Assembly (NCBI RefSeq): GCF_963675165.1 | Contig: NC_087389.1 | Location: 3,718,830-3,782,829, forward strand | Length of the DNA stretch: 64,000 bases | Source of the DNA: Halichondria panicea | Lineage: Eukaryota > Porifera > Demospongiae > Suberitida > Halichondriidae | Reading direction: 5' to 3' | The notes under the pieces: model-generated | Seen by the model: the letters and a program-made list of their open reading frames with translations, nothing else | Databases searched by the model: none | Told to the model about the DNA's origin: nothing | Part shown: positions 23,801 through 64,000 of the stretch, piece by piece | Layout of the letters: the number at the start of each line of letters is the position of its first letter | Numbering within the stretch: the stretch's first letter is position 1 | Made by a program: the position numbers and the translations under genes

Positions 23801-24842
23801 AACAATACATGACATGCAGACATCAAAACACTCTTAGCTATAATATAGTACTGTACACAAGATTGAAAGAGAAGCTCTATAATGCCAATTGCCATTATTA
23901 TACTACAAACATTCTACACTTTTATCCACTTGTATATTCCCAAGAGCAGGTAAGAGTACTCTTATCTACTCCTGACATTACTTACTGTACACTTGTACCA
24001 AAGGCGTATAAAAGAAGAGAGGGCATGTAAATGCACATTAATTCGCCCACGTGGTGAATTCTGCTCGCTACGTGTACTAAATATGCATGCCCTCTCTTCT
24101 TTTATACGCCTTTGCTTGTACCATGCAGGTACACATCTCTTGTGGGTTTGTCAGCTTGTACCACACTATCGCACCACTTATTAATAGCTATTCTGAGGGA
24201 GTTAGATGCTCCTCTATAATTATATGCTCCTGCTTAATTGTACAGTGGTTAACGAGTCACCCATGCACTAAACATATTCATATGCCACCAACCCATCCCC
24301 ATGCAGCATAATCTGGATATACCTTCTGCACAAACGTCTCGAATACAGCCTGATCCTTGTCAATGACTACCAACCCGGTCTGGAGACAACGGAATTGCAG
24401 GAAGAGCAACAAGGGATGGGAAGTTTCGTAGGAGAGAAGATGACGTAGCACAGCAAGGCTACTGTCAACCTGGGTGGATGAAATAACAGCTTCTGAGTGC
24501 AGTATAGTCAAGCCACAAGTAGTGTTGTATCAACATTATGGACAAAATACCTAATAATGAGATGCACAACTCGATCAAATGCACAACTCAATAGCCAATA
24601 CTCATTTTTTCATTGTAACTATGACGTTCTCACAATCAGATCATTGTTTATTAATGTTAACAACGGCAAAATGTCTGTCAGTGAAAGCTCAATGAAGACA
24701 TGATACACTTCACATTAAGTACAACTCACCACTTCAGGAATGGTCAGGAGCTCAGCATTAGATCTCAGTGTTCCAGTCCAGCACTCGAGGAATGCGACTA
24801 GACCCTCCCACTCTATGTACAACATGGAACTCCGACTGCACT
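17899..24842 (-). CDS. XPO5: Exportin-5, exons for the C-terminal half
   Basis: This is the 3' part of one gene whose start is at 44053. Exportin-5 is a RanGTP-dependent karyopherin that carries structured RNA such as pre-miRNA out of the nucleus. Exons descend from exon 13 (24842-24730, with WEGLVAFLE) through exon 14 (24469-24323) and then further exons near 23760-23790, 23560-23640, 23075-23190, 22870-22950, 22470-22720, 22100-22200, 21620-21800, 21170-21290, 19980-20030, 19810-19880, 19360-19540, 19100-19200, 18970-19035, 18694-18772, 18470-18535 and 18194-18105 to the last exon at 18033-17899. The C-terminal region (NMHGTQAH, MMIYEAT, RKEAFRELISGAVG, KHIGEVFKRPV, LAALFGDEN) follows the order of human XPO5. 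Middle exon limits are approximate. Exon 13 begins with the two bases needed to complete the codon left open by exon 12 at 37436, so the reading frame crosses the 12.6 kb intron. Confidence 0.88.
20438..20815 (+). CDS. Secreted precursor with two amphipathic peptide repeats
   Basis: This single exon encodes 125 residues on the strand opposite exportin-5, inside one of its introns (between exons near 21170 and 20030). Residues 1-18 are a clear signal peptide ending STYA. Two equal-length blocks, residues about 27-50 and 68-91, share the pattern A-x-A-Q-F-x-W, then L-x-K-G or L-G-K-G, H-(F/L)-I and D. Each forms an aromatic, weakly basic amphipathic helix bounded by acidic spacers, and the tail after 95 is charged. 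This is how multi-peptide precursors of antimicrobial or other membrane-active peptides look. No family is recognised and activity is an inference. A TATA-like TATTTAAG lies at 20389-20396, about 45 bp before the ATG. Confidence 0.7.
   Translation: MKLTIAFLLCALLCSTYAAPAFKTKEANAQFAWLPISMALKGISHFIPDKDLSEQRMKEQSVNTEENAEAQFWWTAARLLGKGLAHLISDGEESQMSEKKVKALLERLVKEVNMNDVLMQRDGEK
22977..23030. repeat. Imperfect palindrome in an exportin-5 intron
   Basis: AAGGGCGTATCGAC faces GTCGATATACGCCCT with a short spacer. It may be a small foldback element; no flanking target duplication was seen. Confidence 0.6.
24001..24114. mobile_element. 114 bp foldback element with 9 bp target duplication
   Basis: The 27 bp arms are perfectly complementary: the left starts AAGGCGTATAAAAGAAGAGA at 24001, the right ends at 24112. 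CTTGTACCA occurs on both sides (23992-24000 and 24115-24123). It lies in an exportin-5 intron and has no coding content. Confidence 0.8.
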
Positions 24843-25158
24843 CTGCATGCATGCGTATATATGCAATACTCACATCAATAAAATTGTGCGCATTTCAAGG
24901 TGACTAGGAAATTAATATGACTAAGTCTAGACTAGAGCTTATAAGCATTACCAGGCATTCTTGTAGCTAGGTTTTCTGGAAATCATAAGGTCAAAATCAG
25001 CAATCATTTCATCTACTACTGTACTAGAAACACATCCTTCTTGGAAATGTGAATATCATTTAGAGATGTTACACCCACACCACAAAAAAAGCCCATTGAC
25101 TTCAAAGAGAAGACAATATAATAGTCTCTAGAACAAGAGAACAAAGTATTACTGAAAG

Positions 25159-27064
25159 ATGGGAGTCAAAAAGCTAAGCACCTTTATTGAAAGTCACTAC
25201 AAGTGGGAACAAATTAATTTGTTTGGTAGAAAGCTAGTCATTGACGGTTTCGCACTCTGTTTCTCTCTCTATTTTGCCTTCTACTCCAGTACGTGGTTCT
25301 TTGGAGGAGACTACCACGAGTACTATTTCACTGTATGCAGGTTTTTTGATGACCTGAGGCGTAACAACATTGATGTTTATGTTGTCATGGATGGCATTGA
25401 TATTAATCAGACAAAAGTGGCTACAATTCGACAAAGAATCATTGCGAGAAATAGAATTATCGTCAAGTTAGAGCCAAAAAGAGAGAGTGTGGCACCATTG
25501 TTTCTAATTCACGTATTCTTGGATGCATTACGAGAAATGAGGCTCGAGTTCTACGTGGCCGACGGTGAAGCTGACAGGGATATAACGTCCCTAGCTAATC
25601 ATTTCAAGTGCCCTGTATTAAGTAAGGATTCTGACTTTTACGTCTTCAACTTGGAAGGTGGATTCATCCCATTAACGAAAGATAGTCGCAACAATTTGAC
25701 GAAAGGGATACCGGTAAATATTTTCAAATACCGAAAATTCAACAAGCAGTTTTCTCTTAAGGACGCTGATCTTACACTCTTTTTTCCTTTCTTTCTTGGG
25801 AATGATTTTCATAGGTCACCAATACCAATGGAGCGGCTTGGTTTCAACACAAAACCTGAGGTCAGTGATGTTATAACTTATATTCGACAATTTCGTTCCC
25901 TTGACAAAGTTTTAGCTGACCTACTAGAAAATCGTTTTTATTGCCTTGAAAAACGGTTTAAAATGGGTGTACAACACTACTATCGTAGGATTCAAGTTGC
26001 TTCATTTGAAGACCTCAAGAAACCAGGTAAACAGCTGAGAGAGCTGAATCACCCAATCCCGCGCTGGGTATTAATTGCCTACAAAAAAGGGGAATTTCAT
26101 TTTTCTCTAATGAGTTTTCTCGCATTGGAACCGAAACGTGGTCGAAGATATGACACAAGAGAGTGCTTGGGAATTCACACGAGACATCAGGGAAGTGATA
26201 ATGGCCATCTTAACTCCAAATGATGGTACCCAGACAGTGAACGATCGAGATGCTGGTATAGAGAAAGGTTTTGTTAGAGCAACGGTGATGACCCACTCTG
26301 ATGTCAAAGCACTGGCTATTGAAAGTTCAAACACAGTTAAAGAGGAAAGCGACTCGGAATCATATTCCGAGAATGAACTGGAGGATAGTTCAATCTCAGA
26401 GGATGACGACATGGCAGAGGATTCTGATATTGAGGCTAATAATGATGATGTAGTGGCAAATTTGGACACTGAAACAGATAAAAATTGTGGAACTCGCATA
26501 GCGGAAGTTGTACGAGCTCCTGGTAAATATACGATTGACCGGCAAGATATCTATTTCAAGCGAGGACCAATTCATAACATGATTGACTACACTCTCGTAT
26601 GGAAAAAACCCGACAGGAGAAGAACAGCTCTACTAATGATTGTGGATTGCTACGAGATCAAGGATCAACTCGAGTTTGTGCCTGAAGAGCTCCACTTAGT
26701 TGTGATAGCTACTCATTATTGGATCAAGAAAAAGCAAGAGTACATCATGTATCTAGAGCCTTTGATTTACTGTGTCTTTAAGTGCAAAGGTCATTTAGGA
26801 AGAAATAAATTGAATTCTAGAGCTACTCGGAATCTTCGACCATTGGCTCACATTTTTGCTCACTGGCAATGCTCTCTTCATCACATGATAGCACTGAATC
26901 AAGTGCTCAACCAGCCTTATCAGTACACAAGTCCTGCACGCCTTTTCTCTGGTAGTATTCTTCACTACTACCTAAATCAGCTTCAAAGCCAACGAACAAT
27001 TGCACTGTCTCGAGAAGCTCAACGATTGTATGACATCTGTGTCCGTGTAATCAGAATGATATAG
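25159..27064 (+). pseudogene. ASTE1-like: ASTE1/asteroid-like gene with one frameshift (copy A)
   Basis: This intronless member of the asteroid family (XPG/FEN1-like PIN nuclease fold) lies in the 12.6 kb exportin-5 intron. The first frame (25159-26223) has the start MGVKKLSTFIE and the metal-site motifs LVIDG, VVMDG, DGEADRD and KDSDF, followed by LGNDFH. The C-terminal part continues in the next frame to 27064 with VVEDM, WIKKK, AHWQCSLHHMIALNQVL and TSPARLFS. The two frames overlap at 26114-26223. Relatives read KRW...VVEDF here, so about ten codons are missing and one frameshift lies near 26140. No intron fits. An acidic Ser/Asp/Glu-rich stretch (about 26340-26480) is absent from the other copies. 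It is either a recent pseudogene, a sequencing error, or two separate proteins. Confidence 0.75.
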
Positions 27065-28002
27065 ATCCACCCTTAACCAGTCACAAAACTTAACTTCAAT
27101 TGTTCATGTATAATTTTAGAAATTTCTTCTACGTTTCCATTGAGCTATAACCGTACATTCAAATTACAAATTTACAGATGTACCGTACGTATATGTTCTA
27201 ATTTATCGGACAGCCAAATATGGAAATTGTCCGGGTATAATTGGAACAGATTTTGAGCATGCAAAGTGTCCGGAATAATTAGCAGCTGCATTAGAGCTAG
27301 CTAAGTTAATAGAACAGTGTGCACTGAATAGTTGCAATATCTAAAACTAGCTACTCAAAGCTATCTAACTGCACTCTTGCCGTCTATGAATGTAACTAAG
27401 GTATTGTCTGGATATTTAGAACAAATGTAATATTAAAGCACTGGAGTATCCGTTGTATTAGAACAACAAAAATTGCTCAAAAGAGAGAAGTATCATAAAT
27501 TACGGTATATAGAATGCCAATACCAGTCATGCAATGCTATACTTAACTTCTTTCAATGCTGCTTTATTGTTATGAAGTGCCAAAATTTGGACCATGAGCT
27601 ATATAATCCGTGGTAAGGCAATAAAAAATACTTACTTTGACGATACCATTTGAAAGGTAGGAAATGAAAAACATTTACTTTTGAAATACCCTCGAGGCAG
27701 GGCAGAGTGAAATTTAGTGAGAGACACAAATAGCCTGATTATATGCAACTTAAGTGTTAAGAAAACTTGCTTCATGAAATGCGTTTGCTTAGGAAAAATC
27801 ACATTTTAATACTTTCTGTGTATCAAATGTGCCACAACAGTAAAATACAGTAAAATATATGAATTCATTATAGCTGATGATAGCTAATACATACACATGC
27901 AAGCAGTCATACATGAAGTCATGTACACATTTTTATTAATCATGCACAACAGTCTCTTCTTGCTAGGTAGTCTTGGGAGCAGCAGAGGCTCAACAAACAG
28001 GT
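27065..28002. other. Spacer between ASTE1-like copies A and B
   Basis: No gene is recognised. The stretch is AT-rich. Much of it is repeated at 47550-48060 in the second unit, including the matching run CCTCGAGGCAGG/ACTCGAGGCAGG. Confidence 0.6.
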
Positions 28003-29667
28003 TCAACTTGTGGGGAGAAGTTTTTTCGTTATCGCTTCGTACATACAAGCACCTTCAAAGTCCAACCTTGTATGAACGCCTGGACCGCTGACAAAAAAGC
28101 TTTGAAATAGTGTTCCTGAGAACATTCGGCCCAGACTAGTGTAGGTAAATGGATAGTTCAGGATTTCATTGAATGAATTTGTGAGGTGGAGCATGCATTC
28201 CCACTGTGCTAAATAGTGGACCCGGCGAAGGCGAGCCATTGGGTGTTCTCGGTGATGTCCCGCTTCATCAATTGGTCGAGCTCCACTACACGTTTGAAAG
28301 CAGAGCACTAGTGCTGAAATAAAAGCCTCAAAATTATAATCAACATTCTGAACATCAACGAATCTCAGCCAACATCTGCTCGCGATTACCGCTAACTTCA
28401 GCTCTTTCGGAACATTATTCAATGACTTTGAAACGGATTTGCAGTGAAATGTGCGCAAAAAGATTTTCTCTCTCTCTTGTACGGACATATCATCATGGAC
28501 AGTGTGCAGGTCATGTGATCCGAGTATATTTAAATGCTTTGGCGAGAGCGAGAGGTTGATTTCATCCACAAGTGCACAAAAGCAGTCCTGCCGAATTTTC
28601 ACAACAATGCTGGGGATCCTGTCCCTTTGATAGCAACTAAACAGAGCACCGATAACATACGGAAGGACGGAATCGGTCACTTTCCAAGCAGACTCTAGCT
28701 TTAAATCTTCAACCACTAATAAATACTTCCAGATTTTTTTCCCCTCCAGAAGATCACTGGCCAGAAAATACATTGCTGTGCGTGAAAATTCTCCTCTCTT
28801 GAAACGAGATACAATCCATTGAGGGACTGATACACTAAATGCTGAGTGTTGAGACAGGTCTTCAAATGAACGAGGGACAACTCCATAGAACTTGAGATCA
28901 CTAGCAAGTTTTTCTTGATAATCATCAATTTTCAAAGAGGATGTACTAAGCTTTTCAACTATTAGCTCTGCTTTAGCTTCTCGATTAATTCCTAGCTCAG
29001 GTAAAGCATGGCGACCATGAAAGTCATTTCCAAGACAGAATGGCAGGAACAAGCGGATTTGAGGGTGGCTAAAGTTGCACGTTTGATCGAATTTCCGACA
29101 GTCAAAGTACCTCACCTCTCTTTTAAGGTCTTCTAAATTGTCGGGCATGAGGATCAATCCGTGATCTATGTTAAAAATGAAAAAATCTGAGTCATAACCT
29201 AAGACGGGACAGCCAACATGATTTGCAAGTGACACCACATCTCGATCAGCTTCACCATCAGCAACAAAGAATTTAACTCCTGCTTCGCAAACAGAATCAG
29301 CAAATACTTTTTTTGCCAGAGGAGGAACAAATATCTCGTTATTTGTAAGCATTTCAATCCGAGATTCAACTCTTCTCAACTCCTCAAGATTGCGCTTAAG
29401 TCGCTTCATATTAGTTTTTGCCTTTTCATTGTTATAGTCAATGCCATCGACTACAACATATGCTTCAATTCCGATAGATTTTAGCATTCCAAAAAAATCG
29501 AAAACCTTCTTATAAAACTCAAAGTAATCTCGGCATTTAATTCCACGGAACAGTTTATAGCACAAGCAAAATCCATCGATAACGATCTTACTGGACATTT
29601 CCTTCAATATTACAGACTCAATATGCCCGTTTTCCTTCATGTAGGTAGTTAAGGTTGGAATTCCCAT
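28003..29667 (-). CDS. ASTE1-like: ASTE1/asteroid-like protein (copy B)
   Basis: A single exon encodes 554 residues from the ATG at 29667. I chose MGIPTLTTYM because family members start MGI/MGV; an in-frame ATG 11 codons upstream has no family match. Metal-site motifs are intact: IVIDG, VVVDG, DGEADRD, GYDSDFF and LGNDFH. The C-terminal part has VVED, SAWKV, CWL, YLAQWECML and SLGRMFS as in its relatives. Asteroid proteins belong to the XPG/FEN1 nuclease superfamily; their cellular role is poorly known. The gene lies in the same direction as exportin-5, inside its long intron. Its closest relatives here are copy E (44284-46038), the partial copy at 62669 and the pseudogene at 48801. Confidence 0.88.
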   Translation of the reverse strand: MGIPTLTTYMKENGHIESVILKEMSSKIVIDGFCLCYKLFRGIKCRDYFEFYKKVFDFFGMLKSIGIEAYVVVDGIDYNNEKAKTNMKRLKRNLEELRRVESRIEMLTNNEIFVPPLAKKVFADSVCEAGVKFFVADGEADRDVVSLANHVGCPVLGYDSDFFIFNIDHGLILMPDNLEDLKREVRYFDCRKFDQTCNFSHPQIRLFLPFCLGNDFHGRHALPELGINREAKAELIVEKLSTSSLKIDDYQEKLASDLKFYGVVPRSFEDLSQHSAFSVSVPQWIVSRFKRGEFSRTAMYFLASDLLEGKKIWKYLLVVEDLKLESAWKVTDSVLPYVIGALFSCYQRDRIPSIVVKIRQDCFCALVDEINLSLSPKHLNILGSHDLHTVHDDMSVQEREKIFLRTFHCKSVSKSLNNVPKELKLAVIASRCWLRFVDVQNVDYNFEAFISALVLCFQTCSGARPIDEAGHHREHPMARLRRVHYLAQWECMLHLTNSFNEILNYPFTYTSLGRMFSGTLFQSFFVSGPGVHTRLDFEGACMYEAITKKLLPTS

Positions 29668-31000
29668 CATCAACAACTTCTTCTTGAGTAAGCACTTCAA
29701 CTTAAGAGTTCCTGATAATAATTATTGGCCGTTGTACACCACTTTCTACTCAAGTTTCGGTATGCTAGTAATAACTGCAATTGCCAAGAGATACAGACTA
29801 TAATGATTATAGCTAGCTATAACAACAAGAATGAAATTTTGGAAACTTCCATATAAGTACATAGTGCCTAATAGTCCCTAATTGTCCGCTACACAACAAT
29901 TAATCATGGCTTTTGCATAGTTTGCAGTCCAAACAATGTTTAATACAATTATAATATATTCATAAGTGCATGTCATGTCATGCACGCTACATCTCAAAGC
30001 ATTCATCAAGAACAACTACTTTGACAACAGCGCTGAGTTAAGTGCTCTATATCAGCCTATATAGGGGCCAGGATGTATAATTATACATTGCACATACATA
30101 TATTGTCTGGTTGCCTGAATCCTTATAAGAAATCAAAGCAGCTTCAGAAATCTTATTACATGTATGGTACTAGCTGCCAGTGTGGCTCACGTCGGCACTG
30201 TGGTTGACATGCATGCAGTTACATATATAACTGTGGTCAAGCTCATGCATGCACGGTTTACGTATACCAATTACCATTATATCACTACAATTTCCATGCT
30301 TTTACCATCACACAAGCACTACTTTAATTACCAGACAACACTACAAGTGCAAAAAGTGAAAAAATGGGGAAGAGTAGGGTTGGAAGAGCATGATGCGGGC
30401 ACTGAAGTAACAAAAAGATCGAAAACAAGATTGTCTGGTATATAGTCTTTGCATGCTCAACTAGTTAGGGGTGGGGCACAATCTTTGCGACCTTTACCAA
30501 TTGACTATACTTCTCATTATATATACGTCTTTCTTTATGCGAGGCGCTCGATCTGCCCCCTATTTGATTTGACCATCAATTTGTGTGTGTTAATTTTATC
30601 AGTCGATTGTTTTTAAGGTATACACACCACTCAGTAGACAATCAAAAGAAGATTCCATGAATAATACCTTCATGGAATGCATTTCTAACATGTTTACCCT
30701 CTTTCTATGTAACTATGACTATTCTAAGTGCTATGAATTTACTCGTAACAACAAACGACACCAACAATCAACATTACTAAATTGTAAGTGCTATCTAATT
30801 GGCTTGGTCGGAGATCAGTGCACATCACTACAACAACTCTGCAAATCTTAATCACATGATATCACAACCATAAATGATCTATACACTCAGTGACAATGAA
30901 ATAGTCTAAGGGTCTAAGGGTCTATGTGAAATAAGTGCACAATGTATTGCAAAATAAACTAACAGTCTAGATGTATGGAAGCACCTTTGCCGCATGTATG
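29668..31000. other. Spacer between ASTE1-like copies B and C
   Basis: I see no supported gene. Short open frames near 30164 and 30657 have no domain or splice support. Confidence 0.55.
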
Positions 31001-32584
31001 TCACTGTTTAGTTATTACACTAATCATAACGGAGGGTAGTTCTTGCAAAGGCTGAGGTGGTGGATTAACGCAAAAGTGTTCTACTACATCGCAAGAAAAC
31101 AATCGTGCTGGGCTTATGTATCGAAATGCATTCCCTAGCAGTTGATTGAGTGCGATCCCATGATGAAGCACACATTGCCATTGAGCAAATGAATGAAGCC
31201 GTTCCATGTCAACGTGGTCACTTGGTTTAATATCTTCAGGCATAGGGTACTTACCAGAGCAGGCAAGAATACAGAATACAAGAGGAAGTAGAAATGACGC
31301 AAATGCCTGGTCATTACTTTTCAACCACACGCGGCAAGTGATGACAGCCAATTTCAAATCAATCGGAATCTTATCGAGGGAAACCTGAATATGTTTACAA
31401 TCAAAACATTTCACAAGAATTCTCTGCCGTTCGGTAATATCAATCGAAAGAATATCTTTTAGTGGTACGGGCAATACCTGATTGTGCTTTTCTTTCAACT
31501 GAACTCTTGAGAGAGTCAGGTTGCAAGGAACACCAGTGCGCTCAGTATCTTTAATGTGGTCTTTATAGCGCAACAGCTGTGAGAGAACACCGATAATGTA
31601 CCTTCTGGGTTTAAAGGTCACACTCCAGGCACTTCTCTGTCTTGTATCTTCTATAACATTAGAGTATCTCCAAGTGCTTTCACGGACTAGCAATTGCATC
31701 ATAGACTGATTAAACATCCCAAGTTTGTATTCACTCAATATCCAACATGGAATTTTGGAATTGAGACGATCCAAGGTTGTAGTCCGTGCCCAGAAAGATC
31801 TTGGGACAACTCGGTAATAAGGATGTGTCTTATCATTGATCAATCGGTACCTTGCTAGGTCTAGTGGCTCATCTTTTATGTTATCCAAAAGGTCTTCAAT
31901 GTCATCGCATACACCTTTTCGCCTAGTCATAAGAGACTTACGGGACTCAAGAACAAGTGCAAGTTGTAGCCGATGTGCAGAAGAACATCCCATTTGCGAA
32001 TCAAACGCCTTGTAGTTGTAGCACTTCACTGTACCCTCAAAGTCAATGAGGGAGCCTTCGGAATCATACAGCGGTATATAACCCTCATCGATATTGAACA
32101 CGAAGAAGTCAGTGTCTTCCCCCAATATAGGGCAATGGTTATGGTTAGCAACCGCCACACAATCTGGATCACCATCACCGTCAGCAATGAAAAAGCTTAT
32201 ACGACAATCTCTCATAGCATCCACAAAGACGGTTTTTGCAAAAAGAGGCAACACACTCTTGCGTACAGAATTCATATGGCTAGTACGGATATCTGTAACA
32301 TATTGCAACCTTTGACTACATCTTTCCTTGTACACAACCGCGCTAGTATCAGCACCATTCATAACAACATATGCACGAGTTTTTTGTGCTTCCAACATCC
32401 GAAAAAACTCAACTAAATAGCTATAAAACTCGTAATAGTTCCCTCCATTCTGCCATCGATAGTTATTGAAATACAAATGATAGCAGAGAGAGTCACCTTT
32501 AATCACAACTGTACTTTGTCTCAAATTCACAGACCTCCATTGATATTTCTCCTTTATAAAATAGCCCAGTTTTGACAAACTCAT
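31001..32584 (-). CDS. ASTE1-like: ASTE1/asteroid-like protein with altered active site (copy C)
   Basis: A single open frame of 527 residues runs from the ATG at 32584 (MSLSKLGYFI aligns with the family start). The fold signature is kept throughout, including LPLFAKTVFVDAMRD, ILGEDTDFFVFN and AQWQCVLHHGIALNQLL. However, the first Asp is Lys (VVIKGD instead of VVIDGN), VVDG is VMNG, and GEADRD is GDGDPD. The LGNDFH segment and about 30 residues around it are absent. Four independent metal-site changes in an otherwise open frame suggest a pseudo-nuclease with a retained binding role, or an early pseudogene. No counterpart exists in the second duplicated unit. Confidence 0.8.
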   Translation of the reverse strand: MSLSKLGYFIKEKYQWRSVNLRQSTVVIKGDSLCYHLYFNNYRWQNGGNYYEFYSYLVEFFRMLEAQKTRAYVVMNGADTSAVVYKERCSQRLQYVTDIRTSHMNSVRKSVLPLFAKTVFVDAMRDCRISFFIADGDGDPDCVAVANHNHCPILGEDTDFFVFNIDEGYIPLYDSEGSLIDFEGTVKCYNYKAFDSQMGCSSAHRLQLALVLESRKSLMTRRKGVCDDIEDLLDNIKDEPLDLARYRLINDKTHPYYRVVPRSFWARTTTLDRLNSKIPCWILSEYKLGMFNQSMMQLLVRESTWRYSNVIEDTRQRSAWSVTFKPRRYIIGVLSQLLRYKDHIKDTERTGVPCNLTLSRVQLKEKHNQVLPVPLKDILSIDITERQRILVKCFDCKHIQVSLDKIPIDLKLAVITCRVWLKSNDQAFASFLLPLVFCILACSGKYPMPEDIKPSDHVDMERLHSFAQWQCVLHHGIALNQLLGNAFRYISPARLFSCDVVEHFCVNPPPQPLQELPSVMISVITKQ

Positions 32585-32675
32585 GTTGGCTTTTTGTTGG
32601 CAACTGTATTTTTGAACACACAGTATTAAATTGCAAAGGGAATAGTCATATGAAAGCTGCTTCCGCAATGAAATT

Positions 32676-32783
32676 ATTCATAAGCATGCTTGTTAATTCC
32701 CACGCCAATTTTCTCTCTAAAATAACGCTAGGTCGCTATTCATAAGCATGCTCGTTAATTCCCACGCCGATTTGTCTCTAAAA
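32676..32783. repeat. Two-unit tandem repeat, 62 bp period, upstream of copy C
   Basis: ATTCATAAGCATGCT and GTTAATTCCCACGCC recur at a 62 bp interval immediately upstream of the copy C start codon, in its probable promoter. Confidence 0.75.
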
Positions 32784-33122
32784 CGAGGCTAAAATGTCTA
32801 GACAATATACCATTGAGGAACCAGTTGGAGATTAGAGCTACATGGACTTCCGCGTTATATAGGTACCCCATTGCTACACATCCTAAACAATGGAATTGAC
32901 ATTTTAAACTCCAAGATATACCGCATACAGTTATAGTATGCTTTATTATAATTATTATAAGACCATAAACATACAAATAAAATAAAATTCATTAGTATCA
33001 GGTGACTGACTATGTTAGACCACATGACAAAAATCCACCCCCTTTCGACATTTGTAAGTTATCAGTATCAAAAGGCCGGTTTTAACAAGTATCACATCTA
33101 GAACTATGCAGTTCCTCGCAAA

Positions 33123-52128: not shown

Positions 52129-52677
52129 ACTATAAGTATATATATATATCGTAAGGTGACAGGTATTATTATTAAATGCGACTTTAGAGTTTTATACCGA
52201 CCATTTTTCAAATTATCCGTGAATTTAGTTTCCTCTCATTTGCTAACATCACATGCAGTAAATGTTAATAAATTTATAGAGTGCACATAATATGCAATAG
52301 TGTATATTGAAATTTTAATTGAAATACATTGAAGATCATAAATGCACTAAAAACATAGTGATTCAGTATCGTTATGCATACAAGCAACAAAGTCATGCCA
52401 CAGTGAAAGCAAAATTAAAATCAATACAATCCATGCACAATGAAATGCAAAAAATCGGTCACAACGATTAAAGTGTTTATGTGGTAATATTTCTCTTTAC
52501 AACCAGCTCCAAGCCTATAGTCAAAATACAAGCTTCCACAATTACGCTATCATGCACAAACCTGTTAATATACAGCATTTTATTAGAATCTGTTCATCTC
52601 TTTCGGGAAAATGTGTTCCGACTCAATGCATGCATGGTCATGTATGAACAGAGCCATATATTATGCCAACAGAAGGA

Positions 52678-53453
52678 ACAGTTGTTGATCACAACACCAC
52701 GAAAGAAAATTTACGGAACTAACTGTTCATCTCAACAACACCGACTGAGGAAGAAATATCTACTAATCGAAAAATCAATCTCACAGCTCAAAGAAAGAAT
52801 CGAAGTATTGCAGGATCTCTCGAAGCCTTCGCTGAATATCTACCGTAGACAATCAACAAATCTTGACTGTGCATGGCATAGAGATTGAATAATAAAATAA
52901 TATAATTATACTATTCATGCACTCCTGATTATAGCAACTGTTTTTAAATGTACCTGCAGGTGTAACAGAAGAACCCGTTGTTGATCACAACACCACGAAA
53001 GAAGATTTCAGAGCTGACACGTATCGAGCTATCTGTTCATCTCAACAACACGAAAGAAGAACACATCAATCAACAAATATCGACTGGGGCACAAAGTTCA
53101 GAGTTCATAATTATAATCATAATATATTACTATCAACGTAAATCGTCTCTCAAATTGCACTGTCTGCATGTGCATGCAAAGTCATATCATATCCCTGTAA
53201 AGCCAGTTGTTGATCACATGCAACAAGACGTTCACCGGCATAGAGTTCCTTATATCAAATACATAATAGATGCTCTGCACCCAAATCAACATAGCCTTAG
53301 CTTGTGACTTTAGTCTTTACATTACGTTTGCTTGCTTGAACAGAGCCACACGCATACCTGCCATCACGAAAAACCAGCTGTTGATTACAACACCACGAAA
53401 GAAGATTTCACATGCAGCTGACAAAGCTATCAGCTCATCTCAACAACACGAAA
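52678..53453. repeat. Second copy of the GTTGTTGATCACAAC repeat block
   Basis: The motif occurs at 52678, 52976 and, slightly changed, 53378. TCATCTCAACAACACGAAAG or variants follow each. Spacing differs from unit 1 because of small indels. Confidence 0.75.
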
Positions 53454-53949
53454 GAAACAAATTTCACCGTTGACAATCAAAATGCATAACTCGACTGTGG
53501 CATAGAGTTCATTTATACTTTGACATGATTGCAGATTGCAGACGGACAGATCTTCACGAAATTTCTTGATAGAGTTCGACAAAATCATCAAACAGTACTC
53601 ACAAAAGTTATTTCGCAATAGCTAGTGTAAATTAAACTATTATAGCTACATAGACACAGTGGCATGGTGGCTAATCCACATACAAGTTTTTTACTTATGC
53701 TAGTAGCTACACATACATGTCCAACAGCATGGTCACTTTATGAAACCAAGCGAAGGATCACGTGAGCTATAGAGTGTGGGATTTGATATCATAGAGATCT
53801 CCACGATAATTGCACCAGTTGACAAAAGGAACCCACAGCATGTCCGGCTTGAGCAACGTGCCATGCACATGCATGCACAGTGCATGGTACTCTCAATACT
53901 CATGGTAAGAGAATAAAGTTACCATTATATCATAGTTTTGGAGACTCTG

Positions 53950-54800
53950 TTATAGACAGTACATGGGCATGAGGTATCTATGTGTTATAGTGTCCCATAT
54001 CACGAGGGCTTTGCCCGAGGGATGAGGGACACTATAACCATAGATACCGAATGCACATGTGCTAACTGATTTAGATCCCACTTTTCATTGGCTGCCTCAG
54101 GCAAGAAGTGTATCTATAAAAGCAGCAAGCCTTAGCAACAGCTTTATTTTTGAAAATGTCCTGTTTTGACAAGCTAGATGATTTCTGCTTCTCTGCTAAA
54201 TAACCTTTGCATTGGCCTTGCTCCAACATTGGAATGGAAAACTAGTGACTCCAACCTTGTGCAGGAAGCACTCTGCAACAAATGAGCCCAGCCTCCTCTT
54301 TTCTCTGCACTCAAGCCCCACCCCCAGCTCATGTTCTGATATGTACGGCTAGCTAGCAAGGAACAGCTTGCAGCAATGCTACAGTGCACTATTGTTCCCA
54401 AAAAGACACAGGAGTCTACTGTTTGAAACATGGCTGCAGGATAGAAACAGAAGTCAGGAGGACAAAGTTGACAAATGCTACAAGTTGAAGACATGCTTTC
54501 ATGCTTGTGACAATGGACCCAGAACTGTTATAATCATTGGCTCTTAGTGTTCCTCGTAGAGACAAGAAAAGATACTGGTGAACCCTACCATCAACCCAGC
54601 AAACGCTATAGAAACTGGTAGTGAAAAAACTGAACAGCCATAGCTAATTATCATGCAGCTAGCTACAGCTTTATTATCATTTCTGTGCATTCAAAAAAAT
54701 TATACTTGTACTTTATACCCTCAAGCTTATAATTCCCTGGGAAACTATGAGATTATGGCTCATAATTCCCTGCTAAACACACACAAGTGGGATCTAAATA
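53950..54800. other. Insertion found only in the second unit
   Basis: The flanks GGAGACTCT and ATAATTATATACAAGG join directly, through a short tandem repeat, in unit 1. The insert begins with an imperfect palindrome, GGTATCTATGTGTTATAGTG at 53973 facing its complement at 54026-54048, around a CGAGGGCTTTGCCCGAGG core. It has no convincing ORF. It could be a non-autonomous element or retained ancestral sequence. Confidence 0.6.
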
Positions 54801-55405
54801 ATTATATACAAGGTATAGCTGTACATAGTGTGAGTACACTATGTAAGAGTCAAAATAAATAACTTGGGTGCATTATAATTATGCTTCAACACTGCATGCA
54901 CAAGTCGAATGTTTTATGCCGACTGCACTGCATGCAATAACATTACGGGTTATATATATATTTTTTATGACGTTATAAATAATATTATAAGCTTGTATGA
55001 AGTTAGATATAATCATGCAATTCACTATCTCAATTCCTCAAAGATGACTTGCATGCTTGTACGTGACTACAATCAACCAAAGTATGTCTGGAGACAGCTT
55101 ATCAGAGGTCCTGTGTCAACTATAATATTATTACTCGATCTGCGGCATAGTCCATGAGTCACATGAAGCACAACAATTCCAACCACATCAATTTCAACAC
55201 AATTCACATACTGTACATCTTAATGCCTATATATAATAAGCAACTAAAAACTTGGATTAAAATCACTTAGTGGGACAATCGCTTCAAGTGCATTGGTTCA
55301 CATACCAACGTTATAGCAGCACAAGCAAGGAGTAGAGAATAAGTAGTCACTACGTCCCAACTAAATTCGGACATATAGTGTTACGTAAAGCAAATGCATA
55401 TTCAC

Positions 55406-58400
55406 CTTGCCCAGGTTCAAGTTTCTTCTGGACCATCTGCTCAGTGACGGTGAGAGCTTCTACAGCAGCTGTTCTTGGAACCAGAAGAGACACTTGACTA
55501 AGTATCTTTACCATCTTACCACGAAATGCTAGAAAGTAAGTTGTTGCACTTATATGTAAAACGTTATTGTACATTTGCAAGTTAGTGCTGCACATACAAT
55601 ACAGTAAGCTTCATGTACAATACAATTACCACACAGTTAGGGTTTAGATAAACAGTATGCTTACTCGCAAAGAAGAGCATAAAGTTATCCGCCCCATCAA
55701 AGTCCAGACGGGAATACTCTGAACTGACATGGTCGTACACATCAGGGTCACCCACCTACAATACATGCAGGGCAAGCACAAGAGTTATATCAGTATATAT
55801 GTGAGCACTTCTATAACTTCGTGATAATCCAGTGGCATATACGGCACCAAAATGATTAGTAGGCATGGGAAAAAGGGGCTGGTGCAGTATTAAAAACTTG
55901 GGGTGTCCATAGTCTTGAATACCAGCCGGTTATCATTGTAGCGTGGGAGGGAGAGAACCGTCTGGTTACTCTGGGCGGAAGGTTCTGTCAGTCAGGAATG
56001 TGATCATCCTGTTAATCACGTGATAATAACCCACAATTTAGTGTGCACTAAATAAAACTGTTATATTCTTGAAAGCTATGTTACATTCTTGCGGGTAAGG
56101 CTCCAATGAATATACTCTATCAACATTCCGTCCGAGGACAGAAAAGTATGCCCAGAGTAACCAGGCGGTTCTCTCCCTCCCACGCTACAATGAGAACCGG
56201 CTAGTATTCGAGACTAGGGTGTCCACATTTGGTGCCATTATTGAATTGTATGAAATCTTTGGAAAAGCCTCCAAAATAAGTGCACTACCTGCTTTCATTG
56301 TTTCAATGACACACGTTTTAATGACAGTAGGGCTGACTTTGAAAGTTGAAGATAAAATCAACTATAGTATCTTAGCAACATGCACAATGGGATAAAACCT
56401 CCGCCAACCAAGCCCATGGCCAGCAGCACTGGCTTCCGCACATGCACAGGTGCTGATGAGGTCAACAAGATATCATACCACTGATCACTATGGTATGCAG
56501 GTAAAGGACACAACAACAGATAATATGGCGGAAACTTGGTGAGGGATAAACATTATTGAGAAAATTAAGCTTTTTAAATAAAAAAATACGGCTATCAACA
56601 GTTTGCAAAATGTTCATTGTATGAATCAATGCTTGATTTTCTCGAATGTTTATCCCTCACAAAGCTTCCTGTGCTGACCTTGAGCAGTTTCTGTCTGGCT
56701 ATTGTGAGGAGGTGTGTGAGATGGTCCTTGAACACTGGGTGGTCCTTCAGGTGATTGTGGGAGAGGAACGTGATCCACACATCAGCTGATGTCAGACTCA
56801 GCAGCTGCATGTGTGGGCGGGAGGAATGGATAGTTAGTTGGGTTAAAACTCTACAGCATGCATGCTTGTTTTTAGACTAGAGTTGCAGTATGCCACTATG
56901 TTAAATATTATACAGTGGAACCCCTCTTAAAAGTGTACTAAAAAAGCCAATGTACACCTTAGATTCAGTGTATGAAAGTAACTAGGCATAATGCTACATA
57001 GCACAATGACAGCGCTATAGCTACCTGGCTGTTGTGTTTAGTGAACTCAGCCACAACCTGGAGGTACAGTTCCAGAGCCTCCGGAGGCTTGAATGTCAGA
57101 GAGTATGTCTGTAGAGAAAAGAAACAAGAAACAAGGGCCTGATAACAGACACACAACCATCATTGATACCACACAGATAACATTCCAACGTATAGATAGA
57201 GACTGCACGCACCACACTGAAAAAACATAACAGTAATCAGATGTCCCACCTGTCCACATAATGTACATATTATGGCTACAAAGGTTGATAAGGGAATATT
57301 GTAGGGTTAGGTTTGCTATTGATGAGAAAGCTGTTTTTGAGCAAGCCCAATATTAACAGTGCCCGAGTCTCACAGGAGTTGTTTGAGCTAGTGCATCCCC
57401 ACATTACTGACAGAGTAATTAATACTAAGAGTTTAAGCCTGACTATATGTGGTACAATAGTGACGTTGGGAGTGGTGGTCTGTGCACTGCACATGAGGGC
57501 AGATCCCTGCACTCACCCAGAGCAGTGCCAGCTGAGAGGTGCCCAAGTGGACCAGGACTTGACACACCCTCTTCAGGAACACGTATTGCTCCTCCACCAC
57601 ACCTTGCGAGTTGGCCAGTCTGCAAACACAGATATGTACTAAATAATAGTTTACATGCCTTCACTATACAAAAGAGTACATTGACCTTCAAGGTCACACA
57701 TGTACTTTGTCATATGACAAGACAAGCCTCGAATTTGTTAATACTAAGCTGCAATGCTAAAGATAAGATTACTATTATACACATATGAATGTTTGAGGGA
57801 ATGAAAGTGGCAGCAATATGCATTCTATAGATAATTGTACCAGCCTAAAAAATGTAAAAGATTACCACAATGATGTAATGTCCTTTAAACCTTACACCTT
57901 ACATTGAAGCAGCCATGATTCCATTGAGAGCTTCAGTGGAGAGAAGCAATGAGAGAATTGTGGTCCTGTCTCCCTCTGTCTTGCGAACATCACCCTGAAA
58001 TCAAGTTAACACTACTTAACTACCATTGTGTAGTCAGAGAACATTTGTGCTTGATCGAAAGCGGAATAATCAAAATAATACGTACTTTTCTGGAGAGGAT
58101 AGGCAGTAGACACTCACAGGCGACCGTCTTAAGTTCCTCCACCCCTATGAGGTTGTAGAGGAGCTTAATAAGCTTGGCGTCCTCCATCAGGAGGGTGGGA
58201 AACTCCACCCACTCCACAAAGCTGACTATCGTGCTCAGGGCAGTTCGACGAAGGGGCTCCGACAGAGGAGACTGGGGGATAATAGGTAAATAGTAAGGTA
58301 AAGAGAATAGACGAGTGCATTGGTGCATTGGTCACACTTTTTGGCTCCAGTACTATTTCAGGGAAATTACTTACCTCATAACGGTCTAGTTGAAAATAGG

Positions 58401-58981
58401 TAAAGATCATTTCGCATAAAAGCTAAATTCAGTACTAGGATGCAGGTAATAACCTCTAAGTTGCTAATGAGAAAAGTGAAGACTGTCTGAGACTGCTGGT
58501 TGAGGGCAGCTGCCATCTCCCTCTTACGCCCTGAGGTCATGCCAGACTCGTACCCGTGGATGTCCTCAGCCAGACGACGGAATATCAGCAACACCAGCTC
58601 CACCTGGGTGGACTGGGAGGGGAGAGGTGTGACAGCATGCAAGGACTGTGCTTGAAGTGGTGGCATAATAGTACGCCTAATAATTATACATGTATAAGTA
58701 GCGAGAAACCATTGAAGTTAGACCAATACCGTATAGCGGTAATTTTTGTCGACAAGCTGACTTCCTTTTCCCCACGAAAACGTAAAGTGTGATTCACCGC
58801 AACACAGTGCAGGCAATGAAGTCAAACGCAATTTTTTTACTCACAAAATGAATTTTTTACCCCGCGAAAATTACCCGCTATACGGTACTTAGATGGAAGC
58901 TGTTAATTGGCTCCAACAAACTGCGTACATACTTTTAGTGCTACTGTAACATCACATCTCTCCCCTCCCCTCCCCTCCACA

Positions 58982-59025
<44 letters not shown>

Positions 59026-61609
59026 CAACAGAATCATTAATAAAGACTAAAGATTATCTTACCCCGCACTTGGAGACAGTCCCCAAGTCAGTGATAAACG
59101 AGTCCCATCTCTGCGGCCACATCTTTTTGGCTGTTTCCACGGTGACCCTAGCCAGAGCCTCCTTAACGAAAGTGGGCTCTTGATCATAAGGAAGGAGTTT
59201 CTGCAGCATGAAAGAGAAGGAGTTGTAGCGCAGTTGAGAAGCACTGACATGATATAATTAGAGTAAAACATCAGCTAGGACTGCATGAATACACACACAA
59301 TGTTGCAGGAGCGTAGCCACCATTTTTTGAAGGGGACAAAAGCGGCCGTAAAGTGACTGTTTACCAGCCGCGCAGCGCCAAAAATGTTGACAGGAAGCCA
59401 TGCTTCTTAATATGATGTCATAATTTACTTATATACCTAGTTGGGTGTGGCCTGATGTTCTATTTGCGCAGGCTAAGAACGAGAGCTAGTCTATAGATTT
59501 CGACCAGAATAGCTCACAGTTTAGAGACTACATGTAAATCGTTTTACTTGCCACTAGCTAGCTAACTGCAGCCATACTTGGACCTGTGGATTATCCCCAT
59601 ACTTGCAAGGACAGTTTTACCTACCCAATCAGTGGTTCAGCCATACGTCTGAGTATCCCTTAAATTACCTGGGATCTTCCCCTAATGTGCATGCATGTAT
59701 CCAAGTTACCCAGACCATTCAGCTTCCCGCATGGTCTGTCCATGCACCTATAGCCTTTGCTTCTGAGTATCCCAAGTGTTACCAGACCATCCGGGATCCT
59801 ACCGGTTGGTCTGTCCATGCACCTATAGCCCTTGCGTCTGTACCAAAAGTTATCCAGACCATCCAGGATCTTCCTGGACTAGTCTACCCTGACTACAGTA
59901 AGACAAGGAAGAAAAGGGGGTGCTCAGCTAATACAATAACCTAATGTGAGTATTAGAGATCCAGAAAAAAAAGGGGAGGGGGGATTGCCCCCTTTGCCAC
60001 GCCACTGTGTTGAATAGATTTCAGCAAGCTATTCATTAGTACAACTATTGATAAAGTATACATGTACAGTAGACCCTCGTTAATCCGGTCACTCTTGGGA
60101 CAACGCAGTTTGGCCAGAATTCAGAAAGTGGCTGCGGCTAATTTGCGGACATGCCTCGAAACCAATGGTGGTTCTGTCTCCTCTCTATTTAAGTGTAATC
60201 GAATTTTATTTGCCAACCCACACCCTAACGTCATATCTGGCTGTACTATATGTGTCTAAAGTCCATTAAAAATCTGGTTTAGGGCGGTTAAAACTGACTA
60301 GTATACAGGAATAGTGAGGTGGCAACCTTTCAAGGCGAGTTTTGTGCAGTAGTGTTAGCAATTGGTGCCAAACAAAACAGTTGGAATATCATATCAAGGT
60401 GACCGTTATTCAGAGAGTCAAATTAGCGAGAATCTATTATACTCACATTTGAGAGGAACTGAAGCAGGTTCAGTTGGAACTCTCTGCCTTCATCAAGACT
60501 CAAGCTTCTCCATCGATACCTAGAGAAGAGATACGCATGTATCAGTGTTGTGTTTGTCAATCATCCCAGGCTGCTAATGAGATCAGTGATTAGTTGTATT
60601 TAAATCTCAAGCTTAAATTGGATGGTACGGAGAACTTCAGTATCATTTTCAACTGCTAATTAGAATTTGTACAGTCCTTTGACAATAGAGCTGCACTATT
60701 TTGTAAGCTATTTTGTAAGCTTTTGAGCATCCATCAACTCTCACTTTGTACAATATGAACACTCACTTAACAAAATGCTCCATGAGTTGCAATCCAAAGT
60801 GCTTGATGACAGGGACGTGCTCCTCAGACAGAATGAAGCCACACGTCAAACAGTACGGACTCTCATCTTTGAACTGCTCCACTTTCTATAAATAAAGAAA
60901 AACTTTAATATTGACACTTAATGTAAATCAGTAATTCAGCAAAAGTGATACGCAAACAGGGACTTACAACGAAATCAAGCATGAAATCCGATATCTTCTA
61001 TGAAATCACATGAACAGAACTAGACGCCACGCCTTTTTTTAAGGGTGTGGTCTCCAGTGTAGGTGGAGATCACACCCTTTCTTCGAACCGCACTCATTGT
61101 CTCTATTGAGATGATTTTTGTGAAGAGATTGTCTCCTATCAGTGGTGAGCAGCTCTGAACGTTGAACGCGAAAGACTAGCTAGAATCAGATGTCATTGCT
61201 CAATTACCACACCCCTAAAACGTCATGTTAACATTTACTAGGAGATTACTAGTAAGTTTACAACACTTTCATTGATCATGACTTGTGCTAGTCATGTTAC
61301 TTTGTGCACAATATTTGTGTAGAGCTATTGGTAGTTCGGCACTCTTCCGTTCTTATTATATAGATCTACTCTTTCTCCTAGTATTAAGCTAAATCATAGC
61401 CCCGGTTCCAGGCTAGATCTAGATCCAGGGCCCATAGGCAATCTATCTAGATTAGGTCTTGGAAGTACAAAACCTACCTGACTACACTCTGCTCTCTCTG
61501 CCTGAATGGACAAGGGGTCCATGATCTTGTTGACACAGGATATGAGGTCTCGACACAGCAGCAACAAGGCATCCTGCTTCTCATGCTCAGAGGACCATTG
61601 GACAGCCAT
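55406..61609 (-). CDS. XPO5: Exportin-5 N-terminal half, tandem duplicate (exons 1-12)
   Basis: All twelve N-terminal exons of copy 1 are repeated in order, from the ATG at 61609 to the exon 12 donor at 55406-55405, with open frames and GT..AG borders retained. I count only about nine amino-acid differences, mostly mild (for example Ser to Leu in DPSSIQ, Gln to Arg in LRQTAL, Asp to Asn in FTKHDSQ). The next exon available is the pseudo-exon 13 at 47050-47145, which has a stop codon. Without splicing onward, translation past exon 12 would end about 18 codons later. The product is either a truncated exportin lacking the C-terminal half, or an alternative 5' part of the same gene that splices to exon 13 at 24842. 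Confidence 0.8.
55910..56216. mobile_element. 307 bp inverted-repeat element with 9 bp target duplication
   Basis: The arms TAGTCTTGAATACCAGCCGG and CCGGCTAGTATTCGAGACTA continue inward as a run of about 55 complementary bases. GGGTGTCCA is duplicated on both sides (55901-55909 and 56217-56225). The equivalent intron of copy 1 (about 37920) shows the uninterrupted site, so the insertion postdates the duplication. Confidence 0.9.
58729..58885. repeat. MITE, CCGTATAGCGGG family, in exportin-5 intron (unit 2)
   Basis: This is the counterpart of the element at 40468-40624. The ends CCGTATAGCGGTAATTTTTG and AAAATTACCCGCTATACGG are closer to the family consensus than those of unit 1. Confidence 0.75.
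58981..59026. repeat. ACGC tetranucleotide microsatellite
   Basis: About eleven ACGC units lie in an exportin-5 intron of unit 2. In unit 1 the same place holds only a short ACACAC stretch (about 40710-40720), so the array expanded after duplication. Confidence 0.9.
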
Positions 61610-61753
61610 CTTCAACCTCGTGGTCTTGCAGCATTCAGCCCCTCCCACTTCCTAATTTTCAAGCATTCTCTCTGCTCTGGCACTCACTGTCTAGATTTAT
61701 ATTGATACATAAAATGTGCATACTTTAGTCCATAATAATACATGCACACTGTT

Positions 61754-61805
61754 AATTGATGAGCCTATTATTAACAGTGAATTGATGAGCCTATTATTAA
61801 CAGTG
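61754..61805. repeat. Two-unit tandem repeat, 26 bp
   Basis: AATTGATGAGCCTATTATTA and the following 6 bases are repeated directly. Confidence 0.9.
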
Positions 61806-61856
61806 AATTATGTCCCTCATTCCAAACAGCACCTACCCCATCATACTTCTTCGTCC

Positions 61857-61946
61857 TACACTGGATTGTTCAGCCATCCTACCCTATGGTGTAAACCAAA
61901 ATGGTTCCTGAGATATCGTCCAATGATGGCTGAACAATCCAGTGTA
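61857..61946. repeat. Foldback element with 21 bp arms
   Basis: TACACTGGATTGTTCAGCCA... at 61857-61877 pairs with ...TGGCTGAACAATCCAGTGTA ending at 61946. No clear flanking direct repeat was found. Confidence 0.8.
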
Positions 61947-62194
61947 AGACATACATGCACGTACCCCACTGTTAATTTCTTAGAAGGTGAAACACTGATT
62001 TTATATGATTGTTGCTTTATAGATTCACGATCATTCCCCATAATGTTAAGATCATTACGATAAAAAGTAAATCGCATGTCTGTTATGTCAACACACAGGG
62101 TGAATGCTCTCCGAGCATCTTGTTTCGAGAATAATCGTATGATGTACATGCAGTGTATCCAGACTATCTATATACCACAAATTGTTGATGAGTA

Positions 62195-62347
62195 CCGTAT
62201 GTATAGCGGGTTATTTTCGTATGGTGGATTTTTTGTATTTCGTAATTAATTATTTTTCTGCAATAGGTTCAACGTCCTGCACTATCCTGACTGTACGAAT
62301 ACTTAAAATACGAATGGGTAGTTCATAAAAAAATTACCCCTATACGG
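62195..62347. repeat. MITE of the CCGTATAGCGGG group, diverged
   Basis: The left end is CCGTATGTATAGCGGG and the right end is CCCCTATACGG, with TA on both sides. The interior differs from the other copies. Confidence 0.65.
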
Positions 62348-62543
62348 TACTTGTACTTAGTGCTGCTGATCATATGATCTCCAGCCAATCAGCTTGTATA
62401 TAGTCACCTGACCATAACTTAATAATGCACGCTATGAAGTAACAATTAAAATAAATGTAGCCATAGAAAACGGGGTTCTATAAATATCTAATGTATCGTG
62501 ATACTATTGTTACATTAATTGCTTATGATCACTATCGATAAAC

Positions 62544-62633
62544 TAGCCTCGATCCCAGGCCGAGTTTTCGCTTTTATAACGGTTAGGCAAACAACCGTTA
62601 TAAAAGCGAAAACTCGGCCTGGGATCGAGGCTA
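62544..62633. mobile_element. 90 bp foldback element with 9 bp target duplication
   Basis: It has nearly perfect long arms, starting TAGCCTCGATCCCAGGCCGA and ending with the complement. TCGATAAAC is duplicated at 62535-62543 and 62634-62642. The matching place in unit 1 (about 44245-44262) reads ATCCATAAACATGC without the element and is the empty site. Same arms as 9219-9310. Confidence 0.9.
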
Positions 62634-62668
62634 TCGATAAACATGCAGTGGTTTAGATGCTGTAGAAT

Positions 62669-64000
62669 TCAATCCACAAAGTTAGACAATGATGCAAATC
62701 TGTTCTGAGTAGGGATTGAATATTGTAATCGAACAGCATGGGCTTGGCGAACAGGTTCGACTGGTGCATCCGGGAGAAGCTCTTTTGTTATTGCATTGTA
62801 CATAATCCTCCCTTCTTCGTCAAGCATTGAGTAGAGAGGATTGGGTAAGTTCACGAAAAATTTTTGAAATACTGTTGCAGAGAACATACGACCCAGGCTT
62901 GTGTAGGTAAAAGGGCAGCCGAGGATCTGGTTGAAAGTATTGGCAAGGTGAAGCATGCATTCCCATTGAGCTAAGTAGTGGATCCGATCAAGAGCCTTCA
63001 TTTGGTTACGGCAATCCTTAATTTCATCACTGCCTTTACAGAGACACTTTTGAAGGCAGAGAACAAGAGCCAAAATGAAAGCCTTGAATCGATGGTCCAC
63101 ACTTGAGTGAATAGCCATCAGCCAACACCGGCTTGCAACTACTGCTAATTTCAGATCTTCAGAGACATTCTCCAATTCCGCTGAAATTTGTTTGCACTGA
63201 AATACACGTAAAACGATGTCTCTTCGTTTTATTTTGGGCATATCAGGAATATTCAACAAATTGTGTGATCCAAGAATCTCTAAATGCTTCTCATTGAGCA
63301 AGGAGGAAATGTTGTGTTCTTCTAATTTACACAGCGATTTTTGCCTGACCCTCACAATAATTTCAGGGATACTGCCACTTTCATAGCAACTAATGAGAGC
63401 ACCAATAGCATACAGAAGAACCGAATTGGTCACTTTCCAAGCAGACTCTCTCTTTATATCTTCAACAACTAGTATATAATTCCAGATTTTGCTCCCCTTC
63501 AGAATATGGCCTACCAAGAAATGCATTACATTGCGCGAAAACTCTCCTCTTTTGAAACGAGATACAATCCACTGAGGGACTGATGTACTAAATGCTGAGT
63601 GTTGAGACAGGTCTTCAAATGAATGAGGGACAACTTCATAAAACTTACGATCACTAGCGAGTTCTCCTTGATAATCATCAATGTTTAAAGAGGAGTTATT
63701 AAGCTTTTCAACTATTAACTCTACTTTAGCCTCCTGATCAATTCCTAGCTCAGGTAGTGCATGGCGACTGTGAAAGTCGTTGCCAAGACAGTATGGTAAG
63801 AAAAGGCGGATTTGAGGGTGGCTAAAGTTGCATGTTCGATCAAATTTCTGATAGTGAAAATACTGCACCTCTGTTTTAAGGTCTTGTAAATTGTGCGGTA
63901 TGAGAATCAGTCCGTGGTTTATGTTAAAAATGAAGAAATCCGAGTCCAAGCCTAAGACGGGACAGCCAAGATGATTTGCAAGTGACACCACATCTCGATC
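62669..64000 (-). CDS. ASTE1-like: ASTE1/asteroid-like protein (copy E'), 5' end beyond the window
   Basis: The open frame runs off the right edge. The visible part begins DRDVVSLANHLGC and holds LDSDFF, LGNDFH and the whole C-terminal region (VVED, SAWKV, YLAQWECML, SLGRMFS) to the stop at 62669. About 440 residues are present, and the first 140 or so lie outside. Nearly identical to copy E except for the stretch near 63740-63990, where copy E instead matches copy B. It sits 1.06 kb upstream of the duplicated exportin-5 start, the same relation as copy E to copy 1. Confidence 0.88.
   Translation of the reverse strand, partial: DRDVVSLANHLGCPVLGLDSDFFIFNINHGLILIPHNLQDLKTEVQYFHYQKFDRTCNFSHPQIRLFLPYCLGNDFHSRHALPELGIDQEAKVELIVEKLNNSSLNIDDYQGELASDRKFYEVVPHSFEDLSQHSAFSTSVPQWIVSRFKRGEFSRNVMHFLVGHILKGSKIWNYILVVEDIKRESAWKVTNSVLLYAIGALISCYESGSIPEIIVRVRQKSLCKLEEHNISSLLNEKHLEILGSHNLLNIPDMPKIKRRDIVLRVFQCKQISAELENVSEDLKLAVVASRCWLMAIHSSVDHRFKAFILALVLCLQKCLCKGSDEIKDCRNQMKALDRIHYLAQWECMLHLANTFNQILGCPFTYTSLGRMFSATVFQKFFVNLPNPLYSMLDEEGRIMYNAITKELLPDAPVEPVRQAHAVRLQYSIPTQNRFASLSNFVD

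Follow-up and report, generated by a model that had tools for sequence, protein, structure and literature searches.

We analyzed a window of 64,000 nucleotides from the sponge Halichondria panicea (assembly GCF_963675165.1, contig NC_087389.1, here C13; the window is C13:3718830-3782829) and found that it opens a tandem array in which the 5' part of the exportin-5 gene (XPO5) is repeated together with ASTE1-like genes, named A to E, that lie inside or beside it. The array occupies C13:3743289-3869328, spans 126 kb and consists of seven units, six of which carry XPO5 exons 1 to 12. As read from the sequence, a partial duplication followed by amplification and exchange between units is the likely history; the ASTE1-like gene D is probably the cargo that has been kept, and the XPO5 5' halves would be passengers refreshed by the working gene.

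In order to follow the array beyond the window, we carried window coordinates (w) past both ends, joined the window and its fetched flanks into a stretch of 184 kb (w -9999 to 174000), and searched the genome (131.5 Mb, 39 contigs) with protein or DNA queries, of which only the best candidates were scored. The units U1 to U7, numbered along C13, start at w 24460, 46852, 65185, 90650, 108793, 126200 and 143170 and are 22.4, 18.3, 25.5, 18.1, 17.4, 17.0 and 7.3 kb long; U1 lies at 24460..46851, U2 at 46852..64000 in the window with its end at 65184, and U7, the last, stops at w 150499, between D and the expected position of exon 12. Self-comparison of the window confirmed the direct repeat of 24.46-46.85 kb against 46.85-64 kb, with order and orientation conserved, which an earlier sequence-only reading had described. 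Its count of two units did not hold, since seven are present, the last one partial, and they continue beyond the window on the same contig; of its two N-terminal halves and one C-terminal half, the single C-terminal half stood, but six N-terminal halves (N-halves, exons 1-12) were counted. The high identity that it had claimed is patchy: the block of exons 1-12 in U1 matches those of U3-U6 at about 97.5% identity, whereas the exon 13 copies are only 84-85% identical to that of U1, and D about 90%. In the 184 kb, exons 1-12 each occur in six copies, with exon 12 of U3 in pieces, and two partial exon 1 relics are added. Exon 13 is found in U1-U5 and U7, while in U6 it was deleted along with the unit junction, and the units differ from one another by private insertions and lesions. 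A search with the D protein gave 37 matches, 35 across C13:3743991-3875388 and 2 in one relative on another contig (C10). Apart from this distant ASTE1-like relative, no further array copy was found on other contigs among the best candidates for the D protein, the XPO5 exon 1-22 protein and the segment upstream of E.

The gene was identified as exportin-5, as had been proposed, from exon models built by homology and splice borders. The protein of exons 1-12 matches Pfam IBN_N, Xpo1 and Exportin-5, all above cut-off, and aligns with human exportin-5 residues 4-458 in PDB 3a6p (E = 1.5e-77); exons 13-22 have an Exportin-5 match above cut-off and align with residues 493-735 of the same structure (E = 7.7e-17), which is the nearest solved structure for both parts. 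The C-terminal half, from exon 13 to the stop codon, was located at 17899..24842 on the minus strand in the one copy found. Its exon borders are AG/GT except in the region separating exon 22 from the final nine exons, which lies outside the model, and the border of the first of these nine 3' exons is approximate. Exons 1-12 of U1 (37436..44053, minus strand) are in frame with exon 13 (24730..24842, minus strand), which the array alignment shows to be intact in U1 only, and with exons 14-22; no other unit connects to exon 14 and the C-terminal half. With the exon 1-22 protein as query, all 62 matches fell at the array locus, and residues past 525 (exon 14 onward) matched in one place (best 53 of 81 candidates). 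U1 and the C-terminal half thus make up a complete-looking XPO5. The Pfam Exportin-5 profile used as a genome-wide query gave no match, presumably because single exons are too short, and matched after exon joining. A small open frame at 20396-20812 (plus strand) lies antisense in the gap between modelled C-terminal exons, has only a sub-threshold Pfam match and, judged by eye, begins like a signal peptide and contains two internal repeats that resemble each other.

The left junction of the repeat had been expected in or beside exon 14, and we placed it at about w 24460, around ten bases into this exon (24323..24469, minus strand). In U2, U3, U4, U5 and U7, similarity to U1 starts at the counterpart of w 24460, and the same segment from upstream of E stands left of the junction. 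Six copies of this E-upstream segment were matched in the genome search, all within the array; five of them end at the junction, and the sixth, before U6, is cut at w 126208. The breakpoint is therefore kept at five of the six internal unit starts, that of U6 having been deleted, which argues for one partial duplication that was amplified later. Left of the breakpoint, no similarity over any alignable length was seen between U1 and the other units; since the old sequence beyond E is preserved at no junction, only one side of the join can be compared, and homology may have had a part in the founding join. Recombination between the ASTE1-like genes B and E was rejected as the founding event, because the common junction sits in exon 14 rather than within any ASTE1-like gene. 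An imperfect palindrome (23999-24114, 74% self-inverted) was also observed in the intron after exon 14, near the founding breakpoint.

By comparing the units in 500-base windows, we found that the nearest partner shifts along each of them. The left half of U6 has U4 as its nearest partner and the right half has U1; U4 is nearest to U6 on the left and mostly to U3 on the right. Over most of D and the sequence that follows it, U1 is 77-94% identical to U2-U7, apart from a 98% patch where D ends; around w 36860, ahead of exon 12, identity jumps to 98-99%, and beyond this point it is mostly 94-100% to U3, U4 and U6, with dips. Such partner switching within units points to repeated unequal crossing-over and gene conversion rather than to two haplotypes in a row.

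The extra N-halves carry no in-frame stop in exons 1-12 (U2, U4, U5 and U6, as also U1) or in exons 1-11 (U3), but three of the five are damaged in other ways. Both U3 and U4 have AAG in place of the ATG start codon, U3 also lacks 86 bases that include the acceptor of exon 12 and 68 bases of that exon, and U6 has lost the exon 10 acceptor. Additionally, each of the five extra exon 13 copies (U2, U3, U4, U5 and U7) is broken, by an in-frame TGA together with 7- and 10-base deletions in U2 (47048..47143, minus strand, borders approximate), U4, U5 and U7, and by a 4-base insertion and a 10-base deletion in U3. None of the five extra N-halves has an intact exon 13 or anything beyond it, save an exon 14 remnant, and a product of U2 or U5 is predicted to terminate at about residue 496, at the exon 13 stop. 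In the excerpted text of a review, the pre-microRNA (pre-miRNA) tunnel residues named are 593-839, HEAT repeats 8, 9, 12-16, 18 and 19 are counted to the tunnel, and human XPO5 truncated to lack the C-terminal region cannot bind and transport pre-miRNA (PMC6112314). As the N-halves correspond to human residues 4-458, the contact residues named there fall in the missing half, and the N-halves alone would not be expected to carry pre-miRNA. Between U3 and U4, exons differ at 8 of 1358 positions (0.59%) and introns at 22 of 5552 (0.40%), with no sign of exon constraint on these small counts; U1/U4 and U4/U6 each show 2 non-synonymous and 1 synonymous changes, too few to judge.

Gene D is intact in U1 (33123..34907, plus strand, 594 aa) and U2 (50395..52128, plus strand, 577 aa) and open in six of its seven copies (577-594 residues), the copy of U3 being split. 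The ratio of non-synonymous to synonymous substitution rates (dN/dS) is 0.07-0.35 across 15 pairs, and Fisher p values range from 3e-3 to 4e-10 in the four pairs tested, including U1/U2 (p = 4e-10) and U5/U7 (20 non-synonymous and 28 synonymous changes, p = 3e-8). As a reference count in the constraint tests, we used the number of non-synonymous changes expected with one branch neutral; the four pairs showed 75, 14, 16 and 20 such changes against 110, 23, 36 and 50 expected. Judged by these substitutions, D is under purifying selection. All intact B, D, E and F-type frames, including the six intact D, contain five acidic motifs, which we take to be those of XPG-type nucleases and whose residues would be catalytic in the nuclease core. 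Pfam XPG_I_2 is above cut-off in D of U1 and U2 and in A, and below it in B, C, E of U1 and the C10 relative, while E of U2, cut by the window, is unmatched; a joint profile of D of U1 and U2, E of U1 and B of U1 matches Exonuclease 1 (E = 6e-7). Over its length D scores 138 bits against human ASTE1, and the C10 relative, a 620-residue open frame and the sole ASTE1-like relative outside the array among the best candidates, scores 115 bits, both values being approximate. The predicted structure of D (mean predicted local distance difference test score 34.1) is too poor for fold comparison.

Several observations weigh against passengers carried along by a selected D. Exons 1-12 of U2 (55406..61609, minus strand) and U5 are free of lesions, with the start codon and every splice border retained. 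No other N-half has diverged as far as that of U2, and between U1 and U2 exons differ at 25 of 1426 positions (1.75%) while introns differ at 228 of 4129 (5.5%, computed without 1,912 gapped columns); the exon changes are 9 non-synonymous (1097 sites) and 16 synonymous (328 sites, p = 1.2e-5), and the 9 compare with about 27 expected with one branch neutral (P = 7e-5). These counts indicate constraint on the N-half, apparently more than a plain passenger would show unless exchange with the working copy accounts for it. E, in turn, is open in only three of six copies, its dN/dS is 0.39-0.44 (three pairs), and its non-synonymous changes are near the one-branch-neutral count (48 versus 59 and 15 versus 18), so that the substitution evidence for selection on E is weak; for the F-type genes F3 and F8, 70 non-synonymous and 22 synonymous changes show no constraint (p = 0.70). 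Therefore, not every ASTE1-like gene looks kept.

The first two of these points would be explained if the N-halves of U2 and U5 were functional, either as a short form of about 496 residues that may bind RanGTP yet not carry pre-miRNA, or as exchangeable 5' modules spliced past U1 to the common exon 13 and the C-terminal half. The open frames with their intact borders, and exons that diverge a third as much as the introns, speak for this explanation, but we consider it doubtful: every retained extra exon 13 is broken, U3, U4 and U6 carry lesions, the exons of U3 are unconstrained relative to U4, the recent pairs U1/U4 and U4/U6 each differ by 2 non-synonymous changes and 1 synonymous, the few changes in U2 could come from exchange with the working gene, and the truncated human protein, according to the review excerpts, cannot bind or transport pre-miRNA (PMC6112314). 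An extended form of the same idea, in which the array would be a bank of alternative front halves, with U2 and U5 transcribed and either spliced across U1 or made into short proteins that tune RanGTP or microRNA export, and with exchange between units keeping them usable, is unlikely. It seems that some N-halves were constrained and others decay; exchange with the working gene would fit both the constraint and the decay, and so would a function of U2 and U5.

Another explanation is that alleles or pieces of haplotypes were strung together by the assembler and that the true number of units is smaller. Within the longest identical stretch, 6,086 bases between U3 and U4 (84820-90905 = 102963-109048, offset 18.1 kb), a piece could have been repeated falsely, and the assembly could be off by one unit in either direction, most likely at U3/U4. 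An artefact of this kind is, however, quite improbable, as the seven units are non-identical, carry private insertions and lesions, share one breakpoint and switch partners along their length; the longest non-self alignment in the 184 kb is about 15 kb, less than one unit, no single long collinear alignment of two copies is present, and other contigs contribute, among the best candidates, only the distant C10 relative. A neutral array, in which N-halves and ASTE1-like genes are unselected and open frames persist through recent exchange, would suit the unconstrained F3/F8, the three broken copies of E and the near-identity of several units in places, but is very improbable given the significant constraint on D at larger distances (U5/U7 and U1/U2).

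According to the above-described observations, partial duplication with later exchange would have proceeded as follows. As the shared junction shows, a point about 0.8 kb upstream of E was joined, by whatever mechanism, to the point about ten bases inside XPO5 exon 14, and this join duplicated exon 13, the ASTE1-like genes lying in intron 12, exons 12 to 1 and E. The resulting repeat, mostly 17-18 kb, may then have paired out of register many times; we infer from the mosaic that crossing-over in this state was the engine that added units, and that patches were copied between units, including into exons 1-12 of U1. The working exportin-5 would be read from U1 and the C-terminal half. The other N-halves would be passengers, the lesion-free ones yielding at most a truncated protein of about 496 residues, which would lack the pre-miRNA contact residues of the second half, and the part most likely kept by selection would be D, a predicted XPG-type nuclease gene nested in the intron.

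Partial gene duplicates, also in tandem arrays, have been described, as far as the excerpts of these reports go (PMC3449122, PMC6904453, PMC11956922), and the locus falls in this class, with incomplete copies (six N-halves, one C-terminal half) beside a complete source gene. Human SRGAP2B/SRGAP2C and NOTCH2NL, in the excerpted accounts, are likewise truncated partial copies beside a complete gene (PMC6904453, PMC11956922). Unlike them, the six XPO5 N-halves stand in one head-to-tail array with other genes inside an intron, and they are known from sequence alone. The type III antifreeze protein derived from sialic acid synthase is likewise a partial copy in a tandem array (PMC3449122, Table 2); there a new protein function resulted, whereas in the sponge the copies are mostly damaged and the nested genes may be the cargo that was amplified. 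Relative to exportin-5 itself, U1 with the C-terminal half resembles a complete XPO5 and the five extra N-halves are incomplete. With ASTE1/asteroid of the Rad2/XPG class, the sponge genes have in common the XPG-type acidic motifs, Pfam XPG_I_2 above cut-off in D of U1 and U2 and in A, the similarity of D along its length to human ASTE1, and the Exonuclease 1 profile match; unlike ASTE1/asteroid, they are multicopy, intronless open frames nested in or beside XPO5. In the excerpted text of one report, ASTE1 is placed in the Rad2/XPG family alongside Mkt1 and FAM120, and nuclease and repair work on ASTE1 is cited (PMC12345631).

A limited search of the open-access literature found no report of a partial duplication of XPO5. 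Here the partial duplication of one small-RNA export gene has grown into an array in which the founding breakpoint and later exchange are legible in the sequence, and nested genes can evidently multiply along with half of their host gene. If the extra N-halves were functional, the sponge would have an exportin with a set of variable front halves, or with short forms that occur naturally. At such a locus, copy number and completeness would both be misjudged from a view no larger than the window, or from an assembly in which near-identical units had been merged.

The remaining ASTE1-like copies differ among units. In U1, copy A (25159..27064, plus strand) is broken into two overlapping frames and matches Pfam XPG_I_2, copy B (28003..29670, minus strand) is open over 555 aa with its acidic motifs present, copy C (31001..32584, minus strand) is open over 527 aa, and E (44284..46038, minus strand), upstream of XPO5 exon 1, is intact with its motifs (584 aa). 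A and C occur in U1 only. Four of the five acidic motifs of C are altered or missing; C was rejected as a pseudogene with an internal stop, because the TGA proved to be the stop that terminates this frame, close to where the alignment ends, and only the motif changes stand. In U2, the decayed copy B that had been described was found by similarity at 48714..50103 (minus strand), and E is intact (62669..64000, continuing to 64423, minus strand, 584 aa). C and nearly all of A are indeed missing from U2, but their loss by U2 alone was rejected, as both are missing from all of U2-U7, where no DNA match (E 1e-10, plus strand) was obtained save an A remnant of about 150 bases.

Copy B of U3 is interrupted by an insert of about 5.5 kb (w 67.7-73.2 kb), with overlaps of about 100 bases at either side; in it lie an F-type ASTE1-like gene and part of an XPO5 exon 1, of 79% identity. 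Pieces of this insert recur, partly inverted, past the right end of the array, where rearranged pieces right of U7 (w 152-168 kb) include an F-type gene in inverted orientation and another incomplete XPO5 exon 1, again of 79% identity. In intron 12 of U1, a dispersed repeat of about 150 bases (30343-30500, plus strand) has 39 further matches (best of 138 candidates) that are 81-86% alike, on many contigs and often as inverted pairs about 400 bases apart. Just past the 3' end of the XPO5 C-terminal half, a cyclase catalytic domain was found by its Pfam Guanylate_cyc match at 15631-16407 (plus strand, E = 2e-15), and the left flank contains ankyrin-repeat open frames and a ubiquitin hydrolase with a UCH domain (11243-12739, plus strand; 12927-14639, minus strand).

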